IMG/VR virus record: IMGVR_UViG_3300006803_000079
Span: 1-27,295 of that record
Length of the DNA: 27,295 bases
Origin: a virus
Reading direction: 5' to 3' (one strand)
A program made the translations under genes and the position numbers. The notes below the pieces were generated by a model that saw only the letters and a program-made list of their open reading frames with translations, did not search any database and had not been told where the DNA came from. Shown here piece after piece: positions 1 through 4,019 of the stretch (its first letter is position 1; each line of letters starts with the position of its first letter).

Positions 1-273
1 AGCCCGCAAGCACACAAGGCCGCAAGCACTGAATATATATACATGCCCCTAGGCCGCAAGCACGAGGCCGCAGGGGGCCGCAAGGCCGCACCCACCCAAA
101 CGCACTAGGCCGCACGCAAACGCTCTCAAATCAAACGGTGTTGCCCCTGTGGGAGGGAGGGGGTGCAATTCCCACCCACAAATACAGCACATTTTATTAG
201 ACCCTAACTAAATGCTTGACTCTGTTACCCCATTGCATTACCGTGATCGAACCTAAAGCAAAAAGAGATTGAT
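1..273. other. Non-coding left end with repeats
   Basis: No credible gene lies here. The first 115 bases are packed with short G+C-rich repeats (separate entry). TGCCCCTA, the motif that dominates 3785-3962, also occurs at 44-51, with a TGCCCCTG variant at 142-149. A plausible but weak promoter for the plus-strand genes is TTGACT at 216-221, followed 17 bases on by TACCGT at 239-244. The region could be a replication, packaging or terminus-associated control region; the sequence alone does not decide. Confidence 0.6.
3..115 (+). repeat. GGCCGCA / CGCAAGCAC short repeat cluster
   Basis: GGCCGCA occurs exactly at 18-24, 52-58, 66-72, 76-82, 84-90 and 108-114. Copies 17-29 and 51-63 share the longer unit AGGCCGCAAGCAC, and a further CGCAAGCAC lies at 5-13. 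All copies have the same orientation and the spacing is irregular. The window begins inside or next to the cluster, so more copies may lie to the left. Function is unknown; protein-binding iterons are an inference. Confidence 0.75.
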
Positions 274-1055: not shown

Positions 1056-1227
1056 AATAAGAATAACAAGCACCGTCACTAATCATTATTTGGTGGAGGC
1101 CGAAAATTGTGAAGAGGCTGAAGACATTGCTACGTTTGGAGAAGCCAATAGTGATGACATGACACCTCACTACACCAAGCATGGTGAAGAGATCATTGAT
1201 GTGGAGGAAGTCGATGAAAGTCCTTGA
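1042..1227 (+). CDS. Small acidic hypothetical protein, 61 aa
   Basis: I chose ATG 1042, preceded by AAGGGGAG at 1027-1034; a TTG one codon upstream is also in frame. The product starts with a beta-strand-like stretch (KFEIRITSTVTNHYLVEA) followed by an acidic helix (EEAEDIA) and an acidic tail. This strand-strand-helix pattern is common in tiny phage proteins and is also seen in the protein at 2786-3052. Its end overlaps the methyltransferase start (1214) by 14 bases. Function unknown. Confidence 0.6.
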   Translation: MPKFEIRITSTVTNHYLVEAENCEEAEDIATFGEANSDDMTPHYTKHGEEIIDVEEVDESP

Positions 1228-2320
1228 CCTATTCTCAGGCATAGGTGGCTTCTCATTGGGGCTAGAGTGGGCAGGAATGTCCACTGTGGCCTTTTGTGAG
1301 CGTGACCCCTACTGCACCACCATTCTCAACAAACACTGGCCTGACACGCCCGTGCACAACGATGTGAGGAACTTAGATGGAAAAGACTATGCCGATTCAA
1401 TTGACCTTGTGGCAGGAGGATTCCCCTGTCAGCCATTTTCAGTCGCAGGAAACAGACGGGGGTCAGACGATGACCGCCATCTCTGGCCTGAGATGCTTAG
1501 AATCATCCAAGAAGCCAAGCCGCGATGGGTCATTGGAGAAAATGTTTTTGGCCTCATCAACATGGCACTCGACGATGTGCAAGCTGACTTGGAGAGAGAA
1601 CACTACGAAGTCAGGAAATTCGTACTACCGGCTGTTGCCGTCGATGCTCACCACCGAAGAGACCGAGTCTTCATCATTGCCTACCGAGACCCAGCTTTGG
1701 TCAACGCCAGCAGCGAGCACAGGCGGGGGGATACCGACAGACGCAGCGGAGCGGGGATGGAAATGGGAGGGAGCATACTGGCGCAGACCAGACGGCACCA
1801 AGTACCAGACGCAACTGATCGACCAAGCACGCATGTGGCCCACTCCCACGGTGAAAGGCAACTACAACAAGAAGGGCTTGAGTGCGAAGTCGGGCGATGG
1901 TCTGGCGACAGCGGTAAACAAGTCTCGGATGTGGCCGACAGCCACGGCAAGGGATTGGAGGTCAGGCAAGGCATCAGAGAAAAGCATGCGCCGCAACTCT
2001 CGCCCTCTGAACGAAGTGGTAGTGAGAGAAGAGAGGATGTGGCCTACACCAATGGCACACGAGGCGAGGTTGGGATATCAGGACAGGAGTCGTGGCAAGA
2101 AGGGCACGCAGGAGAGTCTCACCACCAAGGTGATCAACAACTTAGGCGGTCGCCAAGAGGTGAGTGGCCAGCTGAACCCAGAGTGGGTCGAGTGGCTAAT
2201 GGGATTCCCAATCGGGTGGACAGAATCAAAGGACTAGGCAACGCCGTTGTCCCGCAACTCATTCAAGCAATCGGCGAGCTTGTGCTTGCCGCAGACAAGG
2301 AGATCTACGGATGCAAATAA
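1214..2320 (+). CDS. dcm: C5-cytosine DNA methyltransferase, 368 aa
   Basis: Transfers a methyl group from S-adenosylmethionine to carbon 5 of cytosine in DNA. Motifs appear in family order: DLFSGIGG (residues 5-12, cofactor binding), GGFPCQPFS with catalytic Cys72, GENV at 108-111, RRDRVFIIA at 148-156, and GLGNAVVP at 340-347. Residues 160-330, where the target recognition domain should lie, are hydrophilic and contain repeated VADSHG/VAHSHG/VAYTNG units. ATG 1214 follows GGAGGAAG (1203-1210) and places motif I at the N-terminus; a longer frame from 1181 is unlikely. No restriction enzyme is adjacent, so this is an orphan enzyme, probably for evading host restriction. A second open frame (1377-2237) lies wholly inside it. 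The gene symbol is a family-level name. Confidence 0.93.
   Translation: MKVLDLFSGIGGFSLGLEWAGMSTVAFCERDPYCTTILNKHWPDTPVHNDVRNLDGKDYADSIDLVAGGFPCQPFSVAGNRRGSDDDRHLWPEMLRIIQEAKPRWVIGENVFGLINMALDDVQADLEREHYEVRKFVLPAVAVDAHHRRDRVFIIAYRDPALVNASSEHRRGDTDRRSGAGMEMGGSILAQTRRHQVPDATDRPSTHVAHSHGERQLQQEGLECEVGRWSGDSGKQVSDVADSHGKGLEVRQGIREKHAPQLSPSERSGSERREDVAYTNGTRGEVGISGQESWQEGHAGESHHQGDQQLRRSPRGEWPAEPRVGRVANGIPNRVDRIKGLGNAVVPQLIQAIGELVLAADKEIYGCK
1377..2237 (+). CDS. Nested ORF inside the methyltransferase gene, 286 aa (WPTPTA-repeat protein)
   Basis: This frame lies entirely within the methyltransferase gene, shifted by one base. ATG 1377 has its own ribosome binding site, GAGGA at 1366-1370, six bases away; a second ATG at 1389 would give MPIQLTLWQED. 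The product has recognisable structure: SSTWHSTMCKLTW (60-72), four related units LWSTPAAS (108-115), MWPTPTVK (153-160), MWPTATAR (185-192) and MWPTPMAH (221-228), and a C-terminal LNPEWVEWLMGFPIGWT (266-282). From memory, such proteins recur in phages, often annotated as methyltransferase-associated. The stop falls just as the methyltransferase's last motif begins. Length alone is weak evidence, since antisense frames of 213 and 233 codons also occur here. Function unknown; it could modulate the methyltransferase. Confidence 0.55.
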   Translation: MEKTMPIQLTLWQEDSPVSHFQSQETDGGQTMTAISGLRCLESSKKPSRDGSLEKMFLASSTWHSTMCKLTWRENTTKSGNSYYRLLPSMLTTEETESSSLPTETQLWSTPAASTGGGIPTDAAERGWKWEGAYWRRPDGTKYQTQLIDQARMWPTPTVKGNYNKKGLSAKSGDGLATAVNKSRMWPTATARDWRSGKASEKSMRRNSRPLNEVVVREERMWPTPMAHEARLGYQDRSRGKKGTQESLTTKVINNLGGRQEVSGQLNPEWVEWLMGFPIGWTESKD

Positions 2321-3720: not shown

Positions 3721-3780
3721 TAAAGGGGGAGAAGGGGTATCCCGAAGGGGAGATATTTAATATATCTCTCCCCCTCTTTA
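3721..3780. repeat. Large imperfect inverted repeat with AT-rich core
   Basis: Outer arms TAAAGGGGGAGA (3721-3732) and TCTCCCCCTCTTTA (3767-3780) pair with one bulge. Inside, AGATAT (3751-3756) and ATATCT (3762-3767) form an alternative inner stem around TTAAT. The two foldings share a right arm, so they compete. It could be a DNA-unwinding element, or an RNA structure in the leader of the small terminase mRNA. There is no clean T-run in either direction, so a simple intrinsic terminator is not supported. Confidence 0.65.
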
Positions 3781-3800
3781 GAGGTGCCCCTATGCCCCTA

Positions 3801-3914
3801 TGCCCCTACCCTTATAAATCAATGACTTACGAGCCGTAGGGGCACAAGGGCACGCAAGGGCACTCTGCCCCTATGCCCCTGCCTGCCCCTACTATATAAA
3901 TCAACAACTTACGG
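3801..3914 (+). repeat. Composite 31-bp imperfect direct repeat, two copies
   Basis: Copy 1 (3801-3832) and copy 2 (3884-3914) both consist of TGCCCCTAC, a 2-3 base linker, and TATAAATCAA followed by ACTTACG two bases later. The 20-base second part differs at three positions only. The copies are about 82 bases apart. In each, an inverted TAGGGGCA follows shortly after. This is a duplicated functional unit, not simple low complexity. Confidence 0.8.
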
Positions 3915-3916
3915 AC

Positions 3917-3925
3917 TTATCCACA
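3917..3925 (+). promoter_or_regulatory. DnaA box TTATCCACA
   Basis: Exact match to the strong bacterial DnaA box consensus TTATNCACA, placed directly after the second composite repeat and just before an inverted iteron. A 9-mer could occur by chance in a window of this size, but its position inside the repeat array makes a real initiator-binding site plausible. Confidence 0.5.
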
Positions 3926-4019
3926 GGGGTAGGGGCAATCTGAAAAAAGGCCACTGCCCCTACGGTTTTCGCCAAAAGTAGGGCCATACCGAACCTAGAA
4001 TTTACTTTAAGTTTCGCTC

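Follow-up and report, generated by a model that had tools for sequence, protein, structure and literature searches.

A viral C5 cytosine methyltransferase gene that contains a second long open reading frame raises the question of whether that frame encodes a protein and, if so, what the protein contributes to the enzyme. We analysed a 27,295-base IMG/VR virus record (the whole stretch is referred to here as the window), which carries tailed-phage genes for a primase/polymerase, a helicase, a Cas4-like exonuclease, a terminase small subunit and tail proteins; no restriction endonuclease gene was recognised among the scanned window ORFs. The outer gene encodes the large chain of the methyltransferase (alpha) and most likely starts at ATG 1214 rather than at 1181, with GGAGG at 1203-1207, 6 nt upstream of that ATG, and a product that starts MKVLDLFSGIGG. 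A preliminary description had reported a 286-codon ORF with its own ATG and a GAGGA site wholly inside this gene, paired motifs in the two products (VAHSHG/MWPTPTV, VADSHG/MWPTATA and VAYTNG/MWPTPMA) and a nested protein ending in LNPEWVEWLMGFPIGWT. The sequence bears out all of these features (Table 1), and the nested frame (beta) is the +1 frame of alpha. Short G+C-rich repeated words (aggccgcaagcac; gcccctatgcccct) occur in the non-coding flanks of the methyltransferase region, at window positions 1-130 and 3721-3960.

Table 1. Features of the alpha and beta genes, in window coordinates.
Feature	Positions	Strand	Basis or remark
Alpha subunit (C5 cytosine methyltransferase large chain, 368 aa)	1214..2320	+	Motifs I-VIII and X
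Alpha motif I, DLFSGIGG	1226..1249	+	Sequence; alignment
Ribosome-binding site of beta, GAGGA	1366..1370	+	Sequence; 6 nt before beta ATG
Beta, putative subunit (286 aa, ATG)	1377..2237	+	Alpha's +1 frame; putative target-recognition region and motif IX
Alpha motif IV, GGFPCQPFSVAG, catalytic Cys	1415..1450	+	P71, C72 and Q73 invariant in 71 sequences
Beta N-terminal conserved domain, residues 36-95, SG..C...SSTWHSTMCKLTW...	1482..1661	+	Overlaps alpha motifs as far as VIII
Alpha motif VIII, HRRDR within DAHHRRDRVFI	1652..1666	+	H147, R149 and R151 invariant
Beta putative recognition cassette 1, WSTPAASTGGGIPTDAAERGWKWEGAYWRRPDGTKYQTQLIDQARM	1698..1835	+	Eight family members at other loci
Alpha linker, residues 184-341, predicted disordered and overlapped by beta	1763..2236	+	AlphaFold pLDDT; frame kept open
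Beta putative recognition cassette 2, WPTPTVKGNYNKKGLSAKSGDGLATAVNKSRM	1836..1931	+	Largest cassette family
Beta putative recognition cassette 3, WPTATARDWRSGKASEKSMRRNSRPLNEVVVREERM	1932..2039	+	Same family block as cassette 2
Beta putative recognition cassette 4, WPTPMAHEARLGYQDRS...	2040..2171	+	Family of 14 loci, virus and bacteria
Beta motif IX, LNPEWVEWLMGFPIGWT	2172..2222	+	L266, P268, L274, M275, G276 and P278 invariant
Alpha motif X, GLGNAVVP	2231..2254	+	C-terminal helix pLDDT ~96; G342, N343 and P347 invariant

A long open frame of this kind could be a by-product of the composition or codon usage of the methyltransferase. Even after synonymous shuffling of the alpha codons, the longest open stretch in the +1 frame averages 110 codons, but 286 codons was reached in none of 5000 shuffles. 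The test was extended to the relatives: in each of the 76 clusters, no more than 3 of 300 shuffles reached the length of the nested frame, and none of 300 did so in 58 clusters. Together with a reversed codon-position spectrum inside the overlap and with homologues that occur in other genetic arrangements, both described below, the shuffles refute this explanation, to which we attach practically no probability.

Scans seeded with beta and, separately, with alpha showed that both frames are present, always in the +1 relation, in 159 of 159 related viral loci, a number that includes the window and comes from overlapping scans (about 139 other contigs); the fair count of relatives is 76 clusters at 95% identity. 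Relatives of the nested protein are abundant and positioned within methyltransferase genes, and a nested frame broken by stops beside an intact methyltransferase, which the preliminary description had named as grounds for abandoning the gene, was not seen among these homologues. The +1 nested arrangement was also found in 82 of 82 annotated-phage and bacterial loci, and every match with readable frames in two genome samples carried both frames. Prevalence was 5 of 398 genomes of the Brevibacillus phylum and 12 of 369 of the Pseudomonas class (samples that include the centre genomes). Apparent stops inside beta in some bacterial matches were rejected, as these matches ran beyond the end of intact beta frames. 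A beta-frame ATG with an SD-like site is present in 58 of the 76 clusters, compared with 20.5 expected from synonymous shuffles; by the criterion used, a clear ATG with SD is missing in the other 18. The SD-forming Arg codon is AGG in 32 of 43. Judged from these sequence comparisons, the nested ORF is a genuine protein-coding and conserved gene.

Substitutions in 33 independent pairs were used to determine which frame selection acts on, based on the ratio of changes at alpha position 1 to changes at alpha position 3 in each segment. This ratio was 0.42 upstream of beta and 0.69 over the beta N-terminus, rose to 1.48 in the middle of beta, where the cassettes described below are encoded, was 1.34 over the beta C-terminus and motif IX, and stood at 0.41 after the beta stop codon. 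Within the middle and C-terminal parts, first-position changes outnumbered third-position changes in 30 of 33 pairs; outside the overlap this was so in 1 of 33. Third-position variability is therefore abnormal within the overlap, where the preliminary description had held that normal variability would count against a nested gene. Because first positions of alpha codons coincide with third positions of beta codons, these ratios mean that alpha prevails over motifs IV-VIII and beta prevails across the recognition region and motif IX. Over the linker, alpha nevertheless remains stop-free in 75 of 76 clusters, compared with 4.7 stops per locus expected from synonymous beta shuffles. This open frame serves to reach motif X, since alpha stops 2-81 codons past motif VIII in relatives that have motif X in beta; in these relatives, the singly coded part of beta has an ordinary codon spectrum (third-position share 0.58).

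Alpha carries motifs I, IV, VI, VIII and X of a C5 cytosine DNA methyltransferase (PF00145), but the recognition domain and motif IX, which share a chain with these motifs in PF00145 enzymes, appear to be read in beta. PF00145 matches alpha with an E-value of 6e-47 (residues 12-202 of the 379-aa ORF), TIGR00675 matches residues 3-173 of the alpha ORF, and the alpha profile aligns to M.HhaI 9-177 (E 3e-36), with motif X aligned sub-threshold at M.HhaI 300-316. The M.HhaI segment that alpha does not match holds the recognition domain and motif IX. The best Foldseek match to the alpha model was M.HaeIII. When alpha was modelled alone with AlphaFold, most of residues 1-170 and the motif X helix were confidently predicted, and pLDDT was below 50 for residues 184-196 and 198-341, with values of 30-45 in the doubly coded region. 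The doubly coded half had previously been taken for the target-recognition region of the methyltransferase itself. This part of the claim does not hold for the large chain: by the structure prediction and the motif content, its doubly coded part is a predicted disordered linker and not a recognition domain of alpha, and the recognition region is read in the nested frame instead, with alpha losing its third-position freedom there.

Beta comprises a conserved N-terminal domain, a variable middle and an invariant end, LNPxWVEWLMGFPxGWT, and matches phrog_1008 ‘DNA methyltransferase’ (E 4e-29). Pfam and NCBIfam searches with beta returned no family, and a PDB sequence search gave chance matches only. 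The N-terminal domain features a series of invariant or near-invariant columns (S36, G37, W63, S65, L70-W72, T77 and L86) and a predicted hairpin (pLDDT 81-85), and we propose that it is a docking domain. Beta alone was predicted poorly (mean pLDDT 56), as could be expected of a chain that folds only in a complex; a Foldseek search with this low-confidence model was uninformative and matched the N-terminal domain to no known fold. As a profile comparison of beta with eight canonical methyltransferase chains gave no significant match, motif IX was assigned by position and pattern. In relatives, the segment that matches it is followed after 31-33 aa, in the same frame, by motif X, a spacing found in 58 of the 61 cases in which IX and X share a frame, whether alpha or beta.

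The middle of beta is an array of approximately 40-residue ‘WPTPTA’ cassettes, four of which (32-46 residues each) are present in the window. A survey of 145 betas yielded 461 such units with a median length of 40 residues, which open with [WLF]PTP, usually end near L..AV and fall into 123 similarity families. These families recur and are common to phages and several bacterial phyla. The largest has 65 members in 56 loci (30 viral and 26 bacterial) at differing array positions, where cassettes 2 and 3 of the window are scored as one unit because the split pattern misses WPTATA. Beta proteins that are 97-98% identical when aligned can nevertheless differ by one or two whole cassettes, as seen for L007 and L009 (41 aa), L123 and L129 (41 aa) and L020 and L113 (70 aa). 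Cassette 4 was gained or lost between L009 and L097, and L010 is without cassette 3 as a unit. Multispecific phage methyltransferases have recognition modules of roughly 40 aa, and tandem modules between motifs VIII and IX, the hallmark of these enzymes, are found here in beta, where the equivalence is one of position and behaviour. By analogy, we lean towards one cassette per target, i.e. multispecificity. The simplest form is represented by betas of 160-165 aa that hold one cassette each (L140 and L146-L150), which would be useful for biochemistry.

Mapping of the motifs across all loci showed that they have been split between the two frames in more than one way. By pattern counts that miss some divergent motifs, the TRD and motif IX are in beta with motif X in alpha in 189 loci, the TRD, IX and X are all in beta in 37 loci, which show the early alpha stop after motif VIII described above, and the cassettes are in beta but IX and X in alpha in 19 loci. 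Alpha ends after motif VIII and beta runs through IX into X in Brevibacillus L167, in L169, in L231 and in gp54/gp53 of Gordonia phage Upyo. In L309, L333 and L334, the chain of the methyltransferase itself holds cassettes between VIII and IX, and the beta profile matches these cassettes (E 1e-13 to 1e-15). L309 and L333 share the same two cassettes (PTPRATDGTKGGPNQRGSSGD... and RTPT.QLA.NGGSQHPDK...) in opposite frames, beta in one and alpha in the other, and this frame swap provides the strongest evidence that the cassettes of beta belong to the methyltransferase. The locus might therefore be an overlapping-frame combinatorial array, in which each ~40-residue cassette would read its own target, cassettes would come and go and pass between phages and bacteria within the limits set by two open frames, and the same cassette could move between subunits by a change of frame; we consider the case for this full picture evenly balanced.

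Several loci have individual features. A nine-G run near position 2380 (locus coordinates) in L328 and L329 lies exactly where alpha motif VIII gives way to the recognition region and fuses both frames. This run, which may have arisen as an indel or an assembly error or may be a slippery/phase-variable tract, makes it doubtful that these are true single-chain enzymes. In L183 (2331-3314) and L288 (948-1736), alpha has a stop between VIII and X, motif X is in a separate short ORF and beta is intact, which reflects either decay or a three-piece enzyme. The alpha frame of L231 (2590-3223, from a Spirochaetia genome) is broken at the catalytic PCQ motif, between GGFP and CQPHS, apparently due to a short insertion. 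On the Roseovarius chromosome OX638333.1, the locus is present at least five times (L174, L175, L176, L180 and L181) with identical match statistics, probably in several related prophages, and Lihuaxuella thermophila carries three copies (L178, L179 and L182).

The co-evolution of the two genes, the distribution of motifs between them, the homology of beta to the recognition/IX part of methyltransferases and the gain and loss of cassettes make it very probable that beta is the recognition/motif IX subunit of a C5 cytosine DNA methyltransferase encoded as two chains. Alpha would provide the SAM-binding and catalytic motifs I-VIII, while its C-terminal helix with motif X, beyond the long disordered linker, would pack back on the catalytic domain. 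Beta, started at its own ribosome-binding site inside alpha in the +1 frame, would bring the docking domain, four cassettes and motif IX, and its cassettes would set the sequences that are methylated. We expect the two chains to assemble physically and both to be needed, and the methyltransferase most likely protects phage DNA from host restriction.

Two other readings of beta were weighed against this model. It is conceivable that beta is not made alone and that a programmed +1 frameshift in alpha yields a I-VIII/TRD/IX fusion, given that the beta frame is always +1, that a shift would give a complete chain in M.AquI-like relatives and that L328 and L329 have the G9 run at the alpha/TRD junction. 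We regard this as very unlikely: a shifted product of the window type would be without motif X, which sits in the alpha frame, beta has its own ribosome-binding site and ATG, enriched over shuffles (58 versus 20.5), and its conserved domain is encoded upstream of any sensible shift point. Equally slim is the prospect that beta is an inhibitor, a regulator or a protein whose only connection to the methyltransferase is the shared DNA. In relatives, the cassettes and motif IX of beta are found within methyltransferase chains, and alpha is without both, even if a conserved N-terminal domain of its own, without known fold, would suit such a protein. Of the roles initially suggested for the nested product, partner or specificity factor is thus supported, but inhibitor is not.

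Bacteria and their phages have few long nested genes for which both products have a clear function. In the present locus, a single enzyme would be divided between two frames, with a family-wide view of motifs moving between them, and the locus family offers a direct test bed for overlapping-gene evolution and modular DNA recognition. In some Paenibacillus phages the internal gene has been annotated and others list one gene only, while the annotation of Lacticaseibacillus phage R9.1 has the outer frame only, as a hypothetical protein. As automated annotation often lists a single member of the gene pair, the half responsible for target recognition has likely been missed, or recorded as ‘hypothetical’, for many methyltransferases of phages and prophages.

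Among known systems, M.EcoHK31I, which targets YGGCCR, has a 176-aa beta whose gene likewise lies within alpha in a different frame. This beta is shorter than that of the window and would fit a single cassette. M.EcoHK31I and M.AquI are natural two-polypeptide C5 methyltransferases and, as described, the large chain of M.AquI has motifs I-VIII, while that of M.EcoHK31I has I-VIII and X together with a predicted recognition domain, only motif IX being placed in the small chain (PMC3404938). Compared by description, the window resembles M.EcoHK31I in that its large chain holds I-VIII and X and its small chain IX, but differs in that its cassettes are in beta. The apparent M.AquI topology, with TRD, IX and X following in the second chain, is seen in relatives L167, L169, L231 and Upyo, whereas the window keeps X in the large chain and its small gene is fully nested. 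Tandem recognition modules in a variable region are shared with multispecific phage C5 methyltransferases of the SPR, phi3T and H2 type, and the gain and loss of whole cassettes also resembles the behaviour of their modules (Trautner, Wilke; cited in PMC8936443 and PMC12707154). These enzymes are single chains, however, whereas the WPTPTA-type array of the window is a separate overlapping gene. A search for literature on nested methyltransferase genes found no relevant paper in the collection covered. Members of phrog_1008 and gp56 of Paenibacillus phage Shelly (‘g55 internal gene’) belong to the same family, occupy the same nested position and are already annotated, as methyltransferase or hypothetical protein, with no role given for the overlap. 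The nested arrangement is therefore already known as a kind and, as far as could be found, what is new is that the recognition array lies in the nested frame and that motifs and cassettes have moved from one frame to the other.
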